Both the position numbers and the translations under genes were made by a program. 32,364 bases of DNA, taken from a virus. The notes below the pieces were generated by a model, which saw nothing but the letters and a program-made list of their open reading frames with translations, was not told where the DNA came from and ran no database searches. Below, piece by piece: positions 20,851 through 28,825 of this stretch (position 1 is its first letter; each line of letters opens with the position of its first letter). The stretch covers positions 1 through 32,364 of IMG/VR virus record IMGVR_UViG_3300045241_000076; one strand, 5' to 3'.

Positions 20851-22050
20851 TTAAATGCCGTCGCGATACGCCAGGGTTTCTGGGTACACGACCTCGACTG
20901 CACCCAGGCGGCAGAAGTAGGTGCTCTTGTGGTAGATGCTGTCGTACTGGATCGGCGTACGTTGCAGCATCGTCATCGGGTAGCGCACGTACTTCTTCTC
21001 GGGCGTGTAGGCGATCATGCGATCCACGCCAGCGGTGCCGATCGTGCCACCGGCGCCGGCACCCACCAGCCACTTGGCGGGCTGGATGGTGATGGAACCC
21101 TGGCCACTTGCCGTCACGATGTTGTTCTCCAGCAAGTACTTCAGGATGGAGATACTGCCAGCAGAGCTCACCACCTGCGTGCTGATGTAGCCGTACTGGG
21201 TCGGCGGCAGCAAGATCTTGGTGGGCATCTGTGCGTAGCCGCTGGCGGCCCAGGCGCTTTGCAGCATGCTGTTCACGTCGGCCAGCATCTCGGCAGGCGT
21301 CTTGGTGCTCCAGGCCGGGAAGCCCGAGGCGCCATTCGCCACGTTCGTGACATTGGTCACCAGTGCCGAGTTGAAGAGGCCGAACTGACCCAGGGTGGAA
21401 TCGCCGACGTAGACCTGCTCGTCGATGTCCATCTGGTGCTTGAGCTTCAGTGCCTCGTACTTCTGGTCGTCGATGGGGCGGCCCATCTTCGCAGCGCTTT
21501 CGAGCTCCAAGATGGAGTACTTGATCTCCAGGCCCCAGGGGGTCAAAGGGGTCGGGTACTTCCCGGTGTCCACGCCCACGCCGCCGATCTGGTCGGTGGC
21601 CTTGCCGATCCACGCCTTGCCGTTGCGGATGCCATTACCGGCGCCCAGGTTGCCAGCGCTGCCGAAGGTCGTCAGCGTGAAGGAGCTGAACTCGTCGGCG
21701 AGGCTGACGTCTTCACGCAGGGGCACGTCGCGGGTCCAGGTCACGGCCGCCAGGGGCATGTGCAGGGTCTGGTCAAGGCGCTCGAGCTCGCCCACCAGGA
21801 AGGCGCCCGTGCTGTCCACCGTGCGGTAGCGGTTGCCTTCCATGTTGGCAAGGCTATCGTGGGTCCGGTAGGCGTGCTCGAAGCGACGGCCCTGCATGTC
21901 GCCGCGCGCCGTGATGGGCGCATTTTCCAGCATGGCGTGGTCGAAGGTCTGCACGTCGCGCGTGCGGGCGCGCACGCCTTGTGGGGCAGCGGAGAAGCCC
22001 ATGGCAATGGCAGCCGCCATGTTGCTTGCCAGGATGAGGTTGCGTTTCAT
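20851..22050 (-). CDS. major capsid protein, DUF2184 type
   Basis: A 399-residue protein. The body matches the DUF2184 capsid family (HK97 fold): LERLDQTLHMPLAAVTWTRD, then WGLEIKYSILELESAAKMG, YVGDSTLGQFGLFN and a C-terminal YDSIYHKSTYFCRLGAVEV. The copy-number-critical gene is followed directly by an intrinsic terminator. The N-terminus is odd: MKRNLILASNMAAAIAMGFS looks like a bacterial signal peptide and is followed by GVRARTRDV. Both features are shared with the next structural gene upstream. Capsids assemble in the cytoplasm, so I read this as an assembly or protease-processed leader, not a Sec signal. AAGGAA precedes the ATG. Confidence 0.92.
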   Translation of the reverse strand: MKRNLILASNMAAAIAMGFSAAPQGVRARTRDVQTFDHAMLENAPITARGDMQGRRFEHAYRTHDSLANMEGNRYRTVDSTGAFLVGELERLDQTLHMPLAAVTWTRDVPLREDVSLADEFSSFTLTTFGSAGNLGAGNGIRNGKAWIGKATDQIGGVGVDTGKYPTPLTPWGLEIKYSILELESAAKMGRPIDDQKYEALKLKHQMDIDEQVYVGDSTLGQFGLFNSALVTNVTNVANGASGFPAWSTKTPAEMLADVNSMLQSAWAASGYAQMPTKILLPPTQYGYISTQVVSSAGSISILKYLLENNIVTASGQGSITIQPAKWLVGAGAGGTIGTAGVDRMIAYTPEKKYVRYPMTMLQRTPIQYDSIYHKSTYFCRLGAVEVVYPETLAYRDGI

Positions 22051-22104
22051 AGCTTGTATTCCTTGAAGTAGTTGTGGAATTGTTTCTGTTGAGCCTGGCT
22101 TGGC

Positions 22105-22698
22105 TTACGCGGCCCAGGTTTGGATCTCGCAGATGCCGTTGGCATCGGGAGGGCCGTTGTAGCGCGCGTTGCTGATGAGCGCCGTGCTGCCGCCGGTTGC
22201 CACCGTTTCGAAGCCGCCCTGCACGTGGACGCCCGAGCTCGCGGCGAACCACACGTAGACGGCGCCACCCTTGACAGGCGGGTTGGTGGCAAAGTCATTG
22301 CTGCGCGCAATGATGAAGCCCTCGTTGAGGACATCGCCGACGCCACCAGCGGGAGGCACTGCAGCGCCGAGGCTCGCCGACATGCCACCAGTCGTTTGCT
22401 GGGTGGGGTAGGGGCGCACAGCGATGCCGGCGATGGTCGTCGGAGTCGTGGTGTCGCCGGCGATGAAGCCGCGGTAGCCCACGCCGGTGATCAGCACCGG
22501 GTCGCCGTAGAGGCGCACGGGGTTGGCGACGTTGAAGAGGCCCGGCAAGATGCTGGCGGGGTGCGTGCGATTCACATCGCCAGGGAAGCCGGCGCCCATG
22601 CGATACGTGAAGGCCACGTCATGGGTGCGGGCGCGGATGCCCTCGGACATGCCGGCGATCAGGGCCAGCGCTGCCAGGTTGATAAGGGTGCGTTTCAT
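22105..22698 (-). CDS. capsid cement / decoration-like structural protein
   Basis: A 197-residue protein directly before the capsid gene, where DUF2184 phages keep a structural cement protein. The sequence is Gly/Ala/Thr-rich and beta-like (YRMGAGFPGDVNRTHPASIL, later VKGGAVYVWFAASSGVHVQGG and a C-terminal GICEIQTWAA), which fits a decoration protein of the Gp24-cement type. The first ~28 residues (MKRTLINLAALALIAGMSEG, then IRARTHDV) form a leader very like that of the capsid protein. AAAGGAA precedes the ATG. Confidence 0.72.
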   Translation of the reverse strand: MKRTLINLAALALIAGMSEGIRARTHDVAFTYRMGAGFPGDVNRTHPASILPGLFNVANPVRLYGDPVLITGVGYRGFIAGDTTTPTTIAGIAVRPYPTQQTTGGMSASLGAAVPPAGGVGDVLNEGFIIARSNDFATNPPVKGGAVYVWFAASSGVHVQGGFETVATGGSTALISNARYNGPPDANGICEIQTWAA

Positions 22699-22769: not shown

Positions 22770-23666
22770 TTATTTCCCCTTCCAGAAGTCGGCGTTGGCC
22801 TTGTTGATGTCGGCCATCGTGGTGATCTTCGTGCCACCCATCGCAAGGTTCTGGGGCTTCGCCATGGTGGCGGCGTCACGGGTAGCGGCCTGGTGATTCA
22901 GGAGTGCCTTGGCACCGCTGGCGGCGTTGAACAGATTGGCGGCTTGCTTGCAATCGAGCTTGCCGAGGTCAATGGCCTTCGTGCCAGGACCGGCCACGCT
23001 GTGCAAGAGCTCCTGCCCTGGCCCCGTGGCGTAGACGGCATCCAGGCACTTGCGGCGTGCCTTGCACATGCTGTCCACGGTGAAGGCGCGCTTGGCGGCG
23101 CTGTCGAAGGTCGGCATCGTGAAGCCAGGCACGAGGATCTCGGCTTGCTGCAGGACTTGCGCGTAGCTGGTTTCCAGCGCCGCACTGTCCTTACCCTTGC
23201 CGTCTTTGCCCTTGGCGTCGTCACCGTCTTCGTCATCGGGATCGGCATCGTCGGTTTTCTTCTTGCCGTCTTCGTCATCGGGATCGGCATCCTTGCCCTT
23301 ACCGTCCTTCGACTTGTCCTTGTCATCCTTCTCGTCGGGATCGGGCTCACCATCCTTACCCTTGCCGTCTTTGCCCTTATCTTTGCCTTCACCCTTGTTG
23401 ATGGACTTCAGGACTTCGGCGAGAGTGTCACCAATTGTCTTCACGCCGCCTTCAAGGGCCAGGAAGCGCTTCTCGTTGGGGTCTTCTTCACCGGCGTCCT
23501 TGCCTTTGGCGTCGGCCATGGGCTCGCCGTTGGCATGGATGTGGATGTGCGTATCACCGCCGCCAGCTCCTTCTTCGAGCTCGGCTTCGGCATCACGCAC
23601 CTGGCGGCGCAGCTCGTCGAGAGCCACGCGTTTCGTAGGATCAATTTTCACACGGGGGGTAGGCAT
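22770..23666 (-). CDS. nested in-frame scaffold protein (internal start)
   Basis: Inside the DUF2213 gene, ATG 23666 (codon 213, MPTPRVKIDPTKRVALDELR) is preceded by GTAAAGGA, seven bases before it, as strong as the sites used by neighbouring genes. It falls exactly at the border between the protease domain and the scaffold region. The product would be 298 residues: scaffold without protease. This copies the lambda C/Nu3 arrangement, in which excess free scaffold is made from the same message. Expression from this site is inference. Confidence 0.6.
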   Translation of the reverse strand: MPTPRVKIDPTKRVALDELRRQVRDAEAELEEGAGGGDTHIHIHANGEPMADAKGKDAGEEDPNEKRFLALEGGVKTIGDTLAEVLKSINKGEGKDKGKDGKGKDGEPDPDEKDDKDKSKDGKGKDADPDDEDGKKKTDDADPDDEDGDDAKGKDGKGKDSAALETSYAQVLQQAEILVPGFTMPTFDSAAKRAFTVDSMCKARRKCLDAVYATGPGQELLHSVAGPGTKAIDLGKLDCKQAANLFNAASGAKALLNHQAATRDAATMAKPQNLAMGGTKITTMADINKANADFWKGK

Positions 23667-24302
23667 GGCCTTTTCCTTTACAGTTGGAGGTGGTTGAAAT
23701 TCACGGTCGCCGATAGCACAGCGCGGGCCACAGCGACCTTTTTCGACCAGCGCGACATGGTTGCAGATGATCTTCACTTGGCGCCCAACGCCGGGCGCCA
23801 CGGGGAGATACGTGGAGTCATAGCCGAGGCTGACCTCGATCAAGCCGGCGAGCACCTTTTCGATGAGGCCCTTGTCGGCAATGATGAGGTCGGCCAACAC
23901 CACTTCGGCGTCATCACCAGTTCCCTGGCGTACGTTGGTAGTGGCGAAGCCCTTGGCAAGCTTCTTCCAGTTCGCCGGCGTCACGTCGTCTTCAGGGTGC
24001 CCGTCAGTAACTGCGGCCCCCATGATGGAGCCCAGCGTGATGGGGTTGAAGAGCTCGTCGGCTTCCCGCTGGATATAGGCGACCCCCGTCTCGCCGACCA
24101 ATATGGGAGTCTCGCCGGGGCCATACATCATCCAGCCGATGCGCGCCACTGGGACGTCCAAGCACAGCAGGTTGCCGTTGGGCAGCAGCTTGCGTTTGGG
24201 TCCGAGTTGCTCGACCGTGTGGATCGTGATGCGTGGCTCGTCGTCAGGGGGCCCGCGGTCAGCGGTGCGGCTGCGCGCACCAGGTAGCGTAAGTACTTTC
24301 AT
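22770..24302 (-). CDS. DUF2213 prohead protease with fused scaffold region
   Basis: A 510-residue protein. Residues ~25-200 match the DUF2213 protease domain: early PNGNLLCLDVPVARIG, then TDGHP (100-103), EVSLGY with likely nucleophile Ser158, and KIICNHVALVEKGRCGP with His182. Residues ~213-510 look like a scaffold: a helical start, an HIHIH motif (His252, 254, 256), an extremely Asp/Lys/Gly-rich stretch (~290-370) and a helical C-terminal domain. The protease would cleave scaffold and perhaps capsid leaders before DNA entry. An internal start for the scaffold part is likely (see the nested feature). AAAAGGAGG precedes the first ATG. The length is larger than a protease alone, in line with a fusion. 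Confidence 0.85.
   Translation of the reverse strand: MKVLTLPGARSRTADRGPPDDEPRITIHTVEQLGPKRKLLPNGNLLCLDVPVARIGWMMYGPGETPILVGETGVAYIQREADELFNPITLGSIMGAAVTDGHPEDDVTPANWKKLAKGFATTNVRQGTGDDAEVVLADLIIADKGLIEKVLAGLIEVSLGYDSTYLPVAPGVGRQVKIICNHVALVEKGRCGPRCAIGDREFQPPPTVKEKAMPTPRVKIDPTKRVALDELRRQVRDAEAELEEGAGGGDTHIHIHANGEPMADAKGKDAGEEDPNEKRFLALEGGVKTIGDTLAEVLKSINKGEGKDKGKDGKGKDGEPDPDEKDDKDKSKDGKGKDADPDDEDGKKKTDDADPDDEDGDDAKGKDGKGKDSAALETSYAQVLQQAEILVPGFTMPTFDSAAKRAFTVDSMCKARRKCLDAVYATGPGQELLHSVAGPGTKAIDLGKLDCKQAANLFNAASGAKALLNHQAATRDAATMAKPQNLAMGGTKITTMADINKANADFWKGK
23190..23400. repeat. low-complexity Asp/Lys/Gly coding repeat
   Basis: Within the scaffold region, the peptide KDGKGKD recurs, and a 26-base perfect direct repeat (23224-23249 and 23266-23291) encodes two copies of DADPDDEDG with a 42-base period. 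The stretch is in frame and highly charged, so it is most likely a disordered spacer prone to slipped-strand expansion. Confidence 0.8.
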
Positions 24303-24330: not shown

Positions 24331-24717
24331 TCATGTTCGCGTCCAGGTGTTGGCGGCCGTCTTCGTGAAGGTCACGCTCTGGTTGGCAGCAAGTGCTGTG
24401 AGTGCGGCACCCAGGAAGACGGCAGAGCCACCTATCTGGTTGAGCGTGAGTGCGGTGACGATCTGCGTGCACATGATGGTGCGCTGCTGGCCGAGCTGGG
24501 ATTGGGCATCGCTGGGCAGGTTGACCGTGAGGGCCGCCAGGGTGCCGGCCGGCGAGAGCTGCAAGATGCCGTCCTGCGCGCTATCGGTCATATTGACCGT
24601 CTGTCCCGTTGTGGGCACCACTGGGGCCTGCACCGTGGGTCCGCCGCTGTTGTCCCAGCTCTGCGGAATCCAGGCGGTGCCGCCGCCGTTGAGTTTGGGC
24701 ATGAAGGCGCTGGTCAT
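24331..24717 (-). CDS. small structural protein, possibly decoration
   Basis: A 128-residue protein rich in Thr, Ala, Gln and Gly (MTSAFMPKLNGGGTAWIPQS, later LTLNQIGGSAVFLGAALTAL). It looks beta-rich, with no membrane segment or catalytic motif. The ATG overlaps the stop of the upstream Ig-like gene (ATGA), so the two are coupled and may act together on the capsid surface. I recognise no family; the C-terminal TFTKTAANTWTRT resembles ends of minor virion proteins. Function is not assigned. Confidence 0.62.
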   Translation of the reverse strand: MTSAFMPKLNGGGTAWIPQSWDNSGGPTVQAPVVPTTGQTVNMTDSAQDGILQLSPAGTLAALTVNLPSDAQSQLGQQRTIMCTQIVTALTLNQIGGSAVFLGAALTALAANQSVTFTKTAANTWTRT

Positions 24718-25340
24718 GGCGCAATCGTGTAGGCAGAACTGCCCACGGCCGAGTTGGTGAAGAGGGCCTTGACGCCAAGTGCCTTGATGGTCATGGCGCC
24801 CGTGACCAGAACCGGCACCGTGTATGGCGTGCTGGCGACAGTCGGCGTGCTGCCATCCACGGTGTAATACAGGCTGGCTCCAGCGGTAGCCGAGCTGATC
24901 GTGACGGGCGCGTTGAGGGCAACGGCGCCTGCTACCGGACTGAAGGTCGGCGTTGCCACGGCGCCATTGATGACGAAGGCGGCGCTGATGACGGCGCTGC
25001 TCACCTGGCCGCCTGCTATGGCGATGACCTTCAGGGTGGCCGTGCTGCTCACGTTGAAGGGCGCCGTGTATTCGGTCGAGGACGCCGAGGGCGTGCTGCC
25101 GTCGACTGTGTAATAGATCTTCGCGCCCGCCGTCGCCGTGGCAAGCGTGACCTGAACGGCCGTGGCACTCTCGGCACCGTTGGGGGAGATCGTGGGGTTA
25201 GCCACGACCTGGGCCATCACGGTGCCGTCGGGCCGCATGATGGCTGTGCCGTCGCTGCTCATGCGCAACACGCCCAGCGCGTTGAGCTCCTGCAGGATTG
25301 GGGAGGGCCCCACGGGATGGGGGAGGGTGGGTGCTGGCAT
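24714..25340 (-). CDS. virion protein with two chitobiase-C/Ig-like repeats
   Basis: A 208-residue protein. After ~50 residues of N-terminal region (SSDGTAIMRPDGTVMAQ), two tandem Ig-like repeats follow (residues ~50-125 and ~130-205). Each has the chitobiase C-terminal type pattern: PT.SP, then VT(L/I)..ATAGA, then (I/L)YYTVDGSTP, then TIKA or TLKVIA. Phages often carry such domains on capsid or tail surfaces, where they bind carbohydrates weakly and aid adherence. Its location in the head module suggests a capsid decoration. AAAGGA precedes the ATG. Confidence 0.8.
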   Translation of the reverse strand: MPAPTLPHPVGPSPILQELNALGVLRMSSDGTAIMRPDGTVMAQVVANPTISPNGAESATAVQVTLATATAGAKIYYTVDGSTPSASSTEYTAPFNVSSTATLKVIAIAGGQVSSAVISAAFVINGAVATPTFSPVAGAVALNAPVTISSATAGASLYYTVDGSTPTVASTPYTVPVLVTGAMTIKALGVKALFTNSAVGSSAYTIAP

Positions 25341-26099: not shown

Positions 26100-27594
26100 T
26101 CTCGTCTCCTGGTAGGCCGGTATCTGGCTCCGGGGCCGCCGGCAAGCCAGTCAGTGGGTCGATCTCAAAGCCTTCCCCAAGTGGCGGCTCCACTTCGTCG
26201 TCGGCGTCGTCGATGGTCTGCTGCGTGATGTTGGTGAAGACGCCCGTCGTGCGGCTGCTCTGCCGCAATTCCTTCAAGGCAGTCTGACGGCCGATGAGGC
26301 CGGCGTCGAATGCCTTCGTCACGGATTCTGTCGTCTTGCTTGCCACGTCGGCCTTCTGCACGTCGTCGAGCTCCCACAGCGAGGCGAAGTCGATGGTGAA
26401 GTTCTTGGGCACCTTGATGCCCTTGCTCTGCGCCATCAGCTTGTAGACGCTGGTCATGCCCGTCAGCATCGTCTTGCGTTGCTGCTGCCTGACGCCGTCG
26501 TAGTAGGTCCTGAGGTCCGACTCGCCGCTGCTGTTCAAGCCAGCCGGGCTTTGGCCGAACATGCGGACAAGCGGTATCTGCAGGGCGCCGCTGAGCTGCT
26601 GACCGAACTGATTCAAGGCATCGCTGAGCCCGCTGAAGGCACTGTGCTCCTGCACGTCGAACTCATCGTCACCATCCAGTAGCGTGATACCTTCCATGCC
26701 CTGGAAGCGGCGCATGATCTCCGTGTATTGGATCAAGCCGTCCAGGGGCTTGCCGCCACCAGCAATGATTTGCCGCATGCCCTTGACCTTGAGCGTGCGC
26801 AGATAGCTCTTGTAGACGAGCTGAGCGGCCCCGGTGCTGGCGCTGTCGAAGGCAATCATGCGGTCGTAGAGACGCTCAAGTACCGAGATGCCCCAGAGAT
26901 TCTCCGTGAGGCGCTGCTGGTAGGGGAGCTGGATGCCCTCGAAGCGTGACGCAATGCGGCTGTGGTGGATCACCTGACCACGGAGCGCCGGCGCGTTTGA
27001 CTGCACCCGGTAGTACTTGGGTTGTCCCAGGTGGGGGCCGAAGTCCGTCACGAGGTCTTCAAGGGTGGGCTCCACCATCCAGCGGTCCAGGCACAGCAAG
27101 CCCTTAAACTGGTCCTTGCCCACGGTCTCCAGGCGGAGAGGCGTCTTGAAGTCCTGGCCGTCGACGAGCATGACGGCGAGGCTACCACCGTAGAGCCGGC
27201 CCCAGCGGACAGCCTCGTTATAGACGTCCCAGATGCCCAACGTCGTGGCTTCGTTGTCCAGCTCTTCGGCCTCGTCGGGGTCCATCTCCGAGACGAAGTC
27301 GATGCCGGCGCGCGTCATGTCGTCGGCCACGAGGTCCACGGCGATGCCACCCAGCCACGAGCCGCGGTGAATCCATTCGAGCAGCACGCGATTACGCGTG
27401 ACTGGGTTGTAGCCGTAGGTGCCAGACGTCAGTGCGTTGTCGGCGCCCACGCCAAGCTTCTGCGCGAAGTTGACGAAGCTGTCATTGGTGGCTACCGCGC
27501 CGAGGCTCACTCCCTGGTAGCCCACCATGGCCTTGGCGCTGCGCTTCTCCGCAGCCACGGCGTCACGGACGGCCGCCTTTACTGATAGCTTCAT
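26029..27594 (-). CDS. portal protein, DUF1073 type
   Basis: A 521-residue portal of the DUF1073 group, seen in VRDAVAAEKRSAKAMVGYQG, TGTYGYNPVTRNR-like GTYGYNPVTRNRVLLEWIHR, WLGGIAVDLVADDMTRAGID, and LVRMFGQSPAGLNSSGESDL further on. Twelve copies would form the ring at one capsid vertex through which DNA is packed. In many related phages the same polypeptide carries an Acb1-type phosphoesterase at its C-terminus. Here the C-terminus is only a short Pro/Gly-rich tail, and the Acb1-like domain is a separate gene upstream. GAGGAG precedes the ATG. Confidence 0.92.
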   Translation of the reverse strand: MKLSVKAAVRDAVAAEKRSAKAMVGYQGVSLGAVATNDSFVNFAQKLGVGADNALTSGTYGYNPVTRNRVLLEWIHRGSWLGGIAVDLVADDMTRAGIDFVSEMDPDEAEELDNEATTLGIWDVYNEAVRWGRLYGGSLAVMLVDGQDFKTPLRLETVGKDQFKGLLCLDRWMVEPTLEDLVTDFGPHLGQPKYYRVQSNAPALRGQVIHHSRIASRFEGIQLPYQQRLTENLWGISVLERLYDRMIAFDSASTGAAQLVYKSYLRTLKVKGMRQIIAGGGKPLDGLIQYTEIMRRFQGMEGITLLDGDDEFDVQEHSAFSGLSDALNQFGQQLSGALQIPLVRMFGQSPAGLNSSGESDLRTYYDGVRQQQRKTMLTGMTSVYKLMAQSKGIKVPKNFTIDFASLWELDDVQKADVASKTTESVTKAFDAGLIGRQTALKELRQSSRTTGVFTNITQQTIDDADDEVEPPLGEGFEIDPLTGLPAAPEPDTGLPGDENEVRPNGQAAKVGGGQARRVALQ

Positions 27595-27609: not shown

Positions 27610-28179
27610 TTAATCTTTCCTGGGCTTTGGTGGCCCGGGTACGTCATGCACTTCAAACTCCGTCTCCCTCTCCCCAGCCAGGCGCATCGCTGTTATGCGG
27701 TGGTGGCCGTCTTGGAGGTAGAGCTTGCCGTCAGGCGTGCGCGCCACCTGGGGTAGGTCAGAAGTGGGCTGTTCATTCTTCAAGAAAGCCCTCACCTTGT
27801 CGGCGTCAACGCTAACCTGGGTGCCTATGAGCTTGCGCAAGGCAAGCTTCTCGACCTTGGGCTTACCGGGCAGCCTCTGGTCGGCCAGGCTATAGTTCAT
27901 GCCCACGTCTACCTTCTCGCTGGCCAGCACGTTGGTGAGCAGCACTTCACCCTTCTGCGCGCTGCCCAAGCCCTGGCCATTCTTGTACTCAGTGCCTCGG
28001 CCTTCGAGGATGCCCAGCTGTGAGAGTCCCGACTTCATGCCGGCCTCACTGATGACGGGGGCCACGTTGGATGACCCCGAGCCACTGCCAAACTTGCCAT
28101 CAGGTGCCCGTGGGTGCTTCCCTTCTTCCCAGGCATCACGCGTGCGTGCCGGCAGGTGAATATGAATGTGCTTAGCCAT
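27610..28179 (-). CDS. ParB/sulfiredoxin-like fold protein with HIHIH N-terminus
   Basis: A 189-residue protein. Residues 1-9 (MAKHIHIHL) carry His at 4, 6 and 8. Residues 20-32 (GKHPRAPDGKFGS) match the short linker motif KHPR..DG(K/R)F seen in many phage head-module proteins. A ParB/Srx-like domain follows, ending DGKLYLQDGHHRITAMRLAG (DGHHR at 157-161) and FEVHDV. This fold includes nucleases, NTPases and modifying enzymes; no specific activity can be read from it. It lies between the Acb1-like and portal genes. GGGAGG precedes the ATG. It may be a packaged effector, by inference only. Confidence 0.75.
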   Translation of the reverse strand: MAKHIHIHLPARTRDAWEEGKHPRAPDGKFGSGSGSSNVAPVISEAGMKSGLSQLGILEGRGTEYKNGQGLGSAQKGEVLLTNVLASEKVDVGMNYSLADQRLPGKPKVEKLALRKLIGTQVSVDADKVRAFLKNEQPTSDLPQVARTPDGKLYLQDGHHRITAMRLAGERETEFEVHDVPGPPKPRKD

Positions 28180-28196: not shown

Positions 28197-28697
28197 TTAG
28201 TCGAACGCCGTGCGTTCCTCGGGTCCCAACGTGATGGGCTCGTTAAACGGCAAGATGCTGCCTCGTGGAGGCAAGCCATCGGCACCGCCAAGCGTGATGT
28301 GCGGCTGGTAGACGGGGAAGGGCCACCTGGCCCCCATGGCCTCGTACTCCTTGTTCCTGGCATCGAGCTCCGGGCTGCGCACGCATAGCACCAGCACGTC
28401 ACCGAACTGTTCGATGCGCCGGCCGCCCGGTGGTATGACAAGGCCTCCCCTGGGTGGCGGCAGCGTGTGCCTGTCTATCTTCGTGCGGCTCTCAGCCACC
28501 GTGACGTGAAGCTCGCCGGCGTTGCATGAGCTCGGGTCGAAGCCCTGTTCGAGCATCCAGGCGCGCAGGGCCACGTTGCTGGCCTCGGCCACCGGGTAGC
28601 CGGCGTAAAGCGTGCCGAAGCGCGAGTAGCTCAATGGCATGCCGTAGGCGAAGTCCAGCGTGTGGCCGCGCGTGTGGACGTGGATGTGAACCGTCAT
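28197..28697 (-). CDS. Acb1-like 2H phosphoesterase (putative anti-CBASS protein)
   Basis: A 166-residue protein with both 2H motifs, His64-Val-Thr66 (GELHVTVAESRT) and His133-Ile-Thr135 (VYQPHITLGG), at the spacing of Acb1-family proteins. FGDVLVLCVRSPELDARNKEYEAMG between them also fits the Acb1 domains that end many DUF1073 portals. Acb1 enzymes cleave cyclic di- and trinucleotides and so disarm CBASS immunity. The start at ATG 28697 overlaps the stop of the 43-aa gene (ATGA); the frame is open further but lies over that gene. The N-terminus MTVHIHVH mirrors that of the ParB-like protein. Length is close to phage T4 Acb1. Substrate is not proven. Confidence 0.75.
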   Translation of the reverse strand: MTVHIHVHTRGHTLDFAYGMPLSYSRFGTLYAGYPVAEASNVALRAWMLEQGFDPSSCNAGELHVTVAESRTKIDRHTLPPPRGGLVIPPGGRRIEQFGDVLVLCVRSPELDARNKEYEAMGARWPFPVYQPHITLGGADGLPPRGSILPFNEPITLGPEERTAFD

Positions 28698-28825
28698 GGC
28701 CGCACCATGCAGATGAAGAGAAGCCCGAGGACCACCACCAGCGCTCCCAGGAGCCAGGAGCAGGCCGTGAGCTGCAAGGGGATGTGGTCCTCGGGCTTCT
28801 CGCCTAAAGGCTGTCTGGACCTCAT
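28694..28825 (-). CDS. 43-residue single-span membrane protein
   Basis: A short gene: ATG at 28825 overlaps the stop of the upstream gene (ATGA), and its TGA overlaps the Acb1-like ATG (ATGA), so it is coupled on both sides. A polar N-terminus (MRSRQPLGEKPEDHIPLQL) is followed by one membrane span (WLLGALVVVLGLLFICM, residues 24-40) and a short basic end (VRP). An 18-bp inverted repeat lies inside it. I recognise no family. It could target the membrane or simply couple translation. Confidence 0.65.
   Translation of the reverse strand: MRSRQPLGEKPEDHIPLQLTACSWLLGALVVVLGLLFICMVRP
28718..28801. repeat. 18-bp perfect inverted repeat inside the 43-aa gene
   Basis: GAGAAGCCCGAGGACCAC (28718-28735 read on the + strand) recurs as its exact reverse complement at 28784-28801, with 48 bases between. 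The arms encode VVLGLL and EKPEDH of the small membrane protein. In the message they would form a long stem ending 21 bases before the Acb1-like start codon; the loop contains a smaller GCTCC/GGAGC stem. Confidence 0.85.

Follow-up and report, generated by a model that had tools for sequence, protein, structure and literature searches.

Propeptides and head proteases are already known in phages; what is new within the literature searched is the proposed T-x-D rule for phages with a DUF2213 protease, together with a matching leader on the cement protein. The SPN3US protease gp245 cuts after A-X-E with Ser favoured at P1', its substrates being the capsid protein, the portal and the protease itself (PMC10052503). 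DUF2213 proteases are present in many phages, T1 included, and a literature search combining DUF2213 with cleavage or maturation found no described cleavage rule. For several related phages, data on the ends of mature head proteins have been published. Edman sequencing of the mature virion capsid of TLS gave ASDMGIW, the authors inferring that 45 residues are removed, after AYE (PMC11447400), and density for the T1 capsid begins at residue 27 (PMC11945409). The capsids of E217 and Pa193 are both resolved from residue 66 (PMC10329688, PMC11042391), the E217 authors proposing cleavage or disorder for the missing N-terminus (PMC10329688), while residues 1-93 of the Pa193 portal are missing from both the map and mass spectrometry. 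The cement protein is a surface trimer in E217, XM1 and T1 and is uncut in E217 and T1 (PMC10329688, PMC11945409), E217 gp24 and XM1 gp53 being shown as exterior trimers at threefold sites. At the locus analysed here, capsid and cement protein both carry an N-terminal leader ending in R-x-R-T-x-D, and a reading of the sequences suggests that these leaders are likely to be propeptides, in which the DUF2213 protease recognises the motif and cuts.

Paired leaders on the capsid and cement proteins

The window, meaning the whole stretch of DNA that was analysed, is a virus record of 32,364 bases that carries on its minus strand the head module of a contractile-tail phage, comprising terminase, portal (PF06381), Mu-F-like protein, DUF2213 protein, cement and capsid (Table 1). 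The AlphaFold model of the capsid protein matches the capsids of Pam3, T1, XM1, Pa193 and E217, and the PF22758/PF23982 beta-tulip cement profile match spans residues 31-193 of the cement protein, downstream of its leader. The gene between those for the Mu-F-like and DUF2213 proteins (24714-25340) encodes two chitobiase/beta-hexosaminidase C-terminal-like repeats and is perhaps a head fibre or decoration protein.

Table 1. Features of the head module and their positions in the window; a slash within a sequence marks a putative scissile bond.
Feature	Positions	Strand	Basis
Major capsid protein (PF09950 / DUF2184), 399 aa	20851..22050	-	Pfam E 2.4e-79; phrog_264
Cement/decoration protein (PF22758/PF23982), 197 aa	22105..22698	-	PF23982 E 2e-16, PF22758 E 4e-15
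Capsid leader, residues 1-32, ending RARTRD32	21955..22050	-	Predicted unstructured
Cement leader, residues 1-27, ending RARTHD27/V28	22618..22698	-	Leaderless homologues begin at the same junction
Second capsid T-x-D site, RTHD, residues 62-65	21856..21867	-	T63 nearly invariant, D65 invariant, 34 capsids
Third capsid T-x-D site, RTVD79/S80, probable mature N-terminus	21814..21825	-	D79, S80 invariant; TLS Edman alignment
Putative DUF2213 head-maturation protease (~8-195) with acidic linker and helical scaffold domain (~372-474)	22770..24302	-	Profiles, AlphaFold
Protease N-terminal T-x-D site, RTAD15/RGPP	24258..24269	-	Sequence alignment and site list
Linker site K-D372/S373, just before the scaffold helices	23184..23192	-	KTGD/SAA, RTGD/SAA and others in relatives
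ATRD476/A site, just after the scaffold helices, before the C-terminal tail	22875..22886	-	Sequence alignment, AlphaFold model and site list
Portal ATND38/SFVNF site, end of the variable N-terminal extension	27481..27492	-	T-x-DS enriched 5.2-fold in portals, one aligned position
RTRD15 in a small HIHIH...HPRAPDGKFG protein (ORF 27610-28179)	28135..28146	-	T-x-D upstream of the HPR motif in 9/12 related ORFs

The capsid leader, MKRNLILASNMAAAIAMGFSAAPQGVRARTRD, and the cement leader, MKRTLINLAALALIAGMSEGIRARTHD, are each followed by Val and hold the motif at residues 27-32 and 22-27, respectively. The likeness of the two, pointed out in an earlier note on this DNA, is borne out, the reading frames being as described there and the local alignment of leader with leader scoring 56, a value that none of 20,000 shuffles reached (shuffled mean 18, sd 3.7); the remainder of the two proteins is, as the note also stated, unrelated. 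Relatives were collected as 80 IMG/VR loci, 11 loci from prokaryote genomes and Edwardsiella phage ZHS, all fetched with the capsid, and their N-termini were tabulated with start codons and ribosome-site scores. Matching leaders, which the note had proposed to look for in relatives, occur on both genes in 58 of the 63 non-redundant loci, on the capsid only in three, on the cement only in one and on neither in one. There are exceptions to the pairing: a capsid leader without a cement leader is seen in Burkholderia phage Magia, Bordetella phage IFTN9 and Acinetobacter phage AbTJ, and neither leader in SEN34, Mulock, EKP1 and YP3; some relatives that lack one or both leaders still have DUF2213.

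The constant part of the leaders is their end, [RK]-x-[RK]-T-x-D, which lies at the junction with the mature domain, as RTRD/MMTFD in capsids and RTRD/VAFTYRMGAGFPGD in cements. In other respects the leaders differ widely, both in length, which for the cement ranges from 8 residues (MKRMKTRD) to about 60, and in character. Leaderless homologues begin at this junction, cements with M-PAFTFRM (L086) or with starts of the MGNAFLYRM type (L096, L100), and capsids with MLTFD (L074) or MITFD (SEN34, L097). The capsid N-arm of one relative (L028:1945 region) bears three nearby RARTxD copies, VRARTMD, FRARTRD and RARTHD, as if multiplied. Within genomes the capsid and cement motifs covary with z about 7 against free permutation and with P 0.03-0.07 once relatedness is controlled, a covariation that mostly reflects shared ancestry and which, given the latter value, is not taken as the main support for a shared reader.

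T-x-D sites across head proteins and published N-termini

T-x-D sits in flexible tails or linkers of the capsid, cement, portal and protease-scaffold proteins. Counted by gene family over the loci, [RK]T.D occurs 237 times in the capsid against 13 expected from shuffles, 52 against 4 in the cement, where all occurrences are N-terminal, and 149 against 24 in DUF2213; it is at or below chance in terminase, DUF4054, sheath, tube and tape measure, the exception among tail genes being one small family (5 against 1.5 expected). Followed by Ser, T.D is enriched 12.5-fold in the capsid, 9-fold in DUF2213 and 5.2-fold in the portal, in the last at one aligned place (ATND/SFVNF-like) that closes a variable N-terminal extension, all such ratios being descriptive only, because the sequences within each family are related. 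The control patterns T.E, S.D, T..D and TD showed no consistent enrichment, the first three staying near 1, and in PB1 alone the enrichment of [TA].DS is not significant. As a guard against post-hoc choice of the pattern, each of the 1,600 gapped residue pairs was scored for its excess over local shuffles, and the pairs ranked, in four regions unrelated to one another, namely the capsid N-arm, the cement N-terminus, the portal N-terminus and the DUF2213 scaffold region, and T.D came first by both the minimum and the mean over the four, with controls at chance; in the scaffold region T.D averages 6.7 copies per protein, where 1.85 are expected. At the level of sequence, the strength of the motif evidence lies in this agreement between non-homologous regions, and a rule shared by several unrelated head proteins and absent from tail proteins is what a propeptide system of the T4 or SPN3US kind would be expected to give. 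Across 34 capsid sequences T63, D65, T77, D79 and S80 vary hardly or not at all, and low-confidence regions of the models hold T-x-D sites, at capsid residues 1-42 and 73-97 and on the flanks of the DUF2213 scaffold helices. Further T-x-D sites in the window, absent from the earlier note, are RTHD65 and RTVD79 in the capsid, RTAD15 and ATRD476 in DUF2213, ATND38 in the portal and RTRD15 in ORF 27610, for whose relatives a search found only one locus.

The DUF2213 protein matches PF09979 (E 1.9e-37) and phrog_530 (E 5.9e-39), and in its AlphaFold model residues from about 8 to 195 form a confidently predicted domain, after which come a disordered acidic linker, a compact helical domain (372-474) and one final helix. 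The T-x-D sites of the linker and the C-terminal part lie on either side of the helical domain. H102, S158 and H182 are invariant in 29 DUF2213 sequences and are compatible with a serine protease; their order and spacing presumably resemble those of the Ser-His-His triad of herpesvirus assemblins. Because a Foldseek search of the whole model against the PDB returned no significant match, the catalytic class is deduced rather than read from a known fold. The acidic linkers of the SEN34 and Mulock DUF2213 proteins (L097, L098) are strewn with TGD (VTGDE, PTGDG, ITGDS and others), a pattern compatible with a scaffold chopped at many sites. Another motif, H-[IV]-H-[IV]-H, is common to the DUF2213 linker (22770-24302, GDTHIHIHANG) and two small head-region proteins, at 27610-28179 (MAKHIHIHLPARTRD) and 28197-28700 (MTVHIHVHTRGHTLD). 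It is retained in the DUF2213 linker of most relatives and stands immediately N-terminal to T-x-D in both small proteins, metal binding or docking being possible roles.

The published N-termini of related phages can be set against these sites. Coliphages T1 and TLS share the head set, with DUF2213 (E 9e-26 and 4e-23), a PF09950 capsid and a PF22758 cement. In the record, the TLS Edman heptapeptide spans residues 33-39 and immediately follows ...AKND32, and for this reason the peptide position was used instead of the published AYE inference, which does not match the position of the authors' own peptide in the record (L108:7073-8062). T1 residue 27 directly follows KQD26, and in an alignment of 34 family members with other relatives TLS D32/A33 falls within 2 residues of D79/S80 in the window. 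E217 also has DUF2213 (E 1.5e-33), and its capsid matches PF09950 weakly; in the E217 capsid sequence AMD64/S65 adjoins the first resolved capsid residue, the portal has AMD72/S73, and the protease-scaffold contains AAD/S, AMD/S and AQD/S. Mature N-termini thus follow a P1 Asp in TLS and T1 and lie close to one in E217, all of them outside the window family, and such published data agree with a cut behind Asp in phages that share this gene set. Since P3 is Thr in the window family, Ala in E217 and Lys in TLS and T1, only the P1 Asp is common to the groups. Homology to PB1-type proteins rests on Pfam/PHROG and fold matches, because the profile comparison of the window capsid and cement with PB1 proteins was not significant. 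Shigella phage Sf11, considered as a blind test, falls outside the class, having a DUF6260 capsid and a candidate protease without a Pfam (DUF2213) match; its mature capsid covers residues 40-356, after A-L-A, and the T-x-D rule is therefore claimed only for DUF2213 phages. The XM1 record PP580404 was set aside, as its annotated head genes disagree with the capsid of the XM1 cryo-EM paper.

Proposed processing and its alternatives

The best reading of the window family is a rule T-x-D/, with the cut C-terminal to Asp, Thr at P3, Asp at P1 and Ser, Ala or Val at P1'. It draws on the motif, its position, enrichment and pairing, and the agreement with published N-termini of relatives. Cleavage of the capsid, portal and scaffold is quite likely, that of the cement on balance probable, and the DUF2213 protein would be the cutting enzyme. 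The substrates of the protease-scaffold fusion in the prohead would be its own N-terminus and linkers, the N-terminal extension of the portal, the capsid N-arm, cut at several sites ending with D79/S80, and the cement leader, cut at D27/V28; the mature proteins would remain and the small peptides exit the head. As alignment places the capsid maturation cut most probably at D79/S80, the capsid leader would be the first segment of a multi-site propeptide, while the cement leader probably ends at Asp27/Val28. The leader may also hold its protein on the scaffold before the cut, as the T4 capsid-targeting sequence does. The existence of very short leaders (8-10 residues) counts against the propeptide reading, as do the relatives that retain DUF2213 while lacking one or both leaders, and the differing P3 residues. 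Of the options in the earlier note, that of an element cleaved by the DUF2213 protease has the most support, from the motif enrichment and from Edman and cryo-EM N-termini in DUF2213 phages.

The cement protein is the weak point of this scheme. Because the cements of E217 and T1 are exterior and uncut, a protease inside the head could act on the cement leader only if the two came into contact; otherwise the leader would be cut in another place or stay on the protein. That an exterior cement protein should have its leader cleaved by the maturation protease inside the prohead is a tentative proposal, of less than even probability. The cement could be recruited during prohead assembly, its leader threaded through the shell to the scaffold and cleavage freeing it to take its final place; lambda gpD, unlike a cement recruited at the prohead stage, binds after expansion.

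The same motif could serve as an assembly tag without cleavage, R-x-[RK]-T-x-D docking capsid, cement and portal on the protease-scaffold and staying on the mature proteins. Its repetition in the scaffold region itself, well above expectation, would suit such a tag, as would its presence on leaders so short that their removal would seem pointless, but the mature N-termini of three DUF2213 phage groups lie at or within 2 residues of a matching Asp and leaderless homologues start at the junction, so that a tag alone is unlikely. The common assembly tag suggested earlier is possible as an added role beside the better supported cleavage. More doubtful still is a purely structural part, in which T-x-D belongs to the local structure of extended N-arms within the shell lattice and is retained, with purifying selection acting on it. 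The E217 cement does have an ordered N-terminal arm (residues 1-25) packing on its neighbour (PMC10329688), and invariant D65, D79 and S80 in the capsid would agree with such a role; the capsid N-region, however, is predicted to be disordered, and the portal, the DUF2213 N-terminus and the disordered linker carry the motif without a common structural context.

The earlier note had likened the leaders to Sec signals and raised membrane-associated prohead assembly, in which capsid and cement would be directed to the inner membrane and assemble there. The leader itself stands, its hydrophobic core being variable and the R-x-[RK]-T-x-D end the conserved part. With a core defined as a 9-residue Kyte-Doolittle mean of at least 1.8, both proteins have one in 14 of the 63 pairs, the cement only in 14 and neither in 35. 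Several cement leaders resemble textbook signal peptides (MKKSLIALAALAA...), and wherever the capsid leader is hydrophobic its cement partner is too (phylogeny not controlled), so that the hydrophobic version appears as a paired variant, probably lineage-bound. Most leaders, however, are short and non-hydrophobic (MSNRMKTRD, MKRMKTRD), and the capsid leader is modelled without a helix, capsid residues 1-42 falling below a confidence of 50. A basic start, hydrophobic core and A-x-A type end were not found as a feature of leader-bearing relatives. With 35 of the 63 pairs lacking the hydrophobic stretch in both proteins, a Sec signal fails as an explanation of the class and was rejected, and export would not account for the motif in the portal and the DUF2213 linker, the conserved portion being the charged leader end; a membrane role is accordingly very improbable. 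Least probable of all is a recent recombination that copied the leader between neighbouring genes with no common function, for although the window leaders are closely alike and their genes adjacent, leader sequences differ widely between genomes around a constant end motif that also occurs in portals and at several internal places in DUF2213.

Comparison with known systems

If the rule is true, T-x-D, or more widely x-x-D, would predict the mature ends of capsid, portal and scaffold from sequence and would explain the absent N-terminal density in the E217, Pa193 and T1 capsids; it would also make it possible to test directly whether a maturation protease can act on a cement protein. T1 and TLS resemble the window family in the head gene set and in a mature capsid N-terminus directly after an Asp aligned with D79/S80 of the window, but differ in a cement without a leader (T1 gp49 is resolved from residue 2), in Lys at P3 and in a shorter propeptide. 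E217, PB1 and Pa193 share DUF2213, a PF22758 cement and a remote PF09950 capsid, the capsid being invisible before residue 66, next to AMD/S, and the portal having the same AMD/S, whereas P3 is Ala and the cement, resolved from residue 1, lacks a leader. In T4, several head proteins carry short N-terminal peptides that direct them to the core and are then removed, the N-terminus of the protease gp21 is self-cleaved and about 65 residues are removed from the capsid protein gp23; in contrast to the present case, the named substrates are internal or shell proteins with no decoration protein among them, and the sequence rule is another (PMC9958956). The SPN3US protease gp245, as far as the consulted part of its description extends, resembles the window family in a tripeptide rule with a fixed P3, an acidic P1, Ser after the cut and several sites per propeptide, and in having capsid, portal and the protease itself as substrates; it differs in cutting by A-X-E instead of T-x-D and in that no cement-type substrate is described there (PMC10052503). 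By analogy with these systems, a prohead protease of the T4 and SPN3US kind, acting in the window family at T-x-D/, is the best reading of the leaders.
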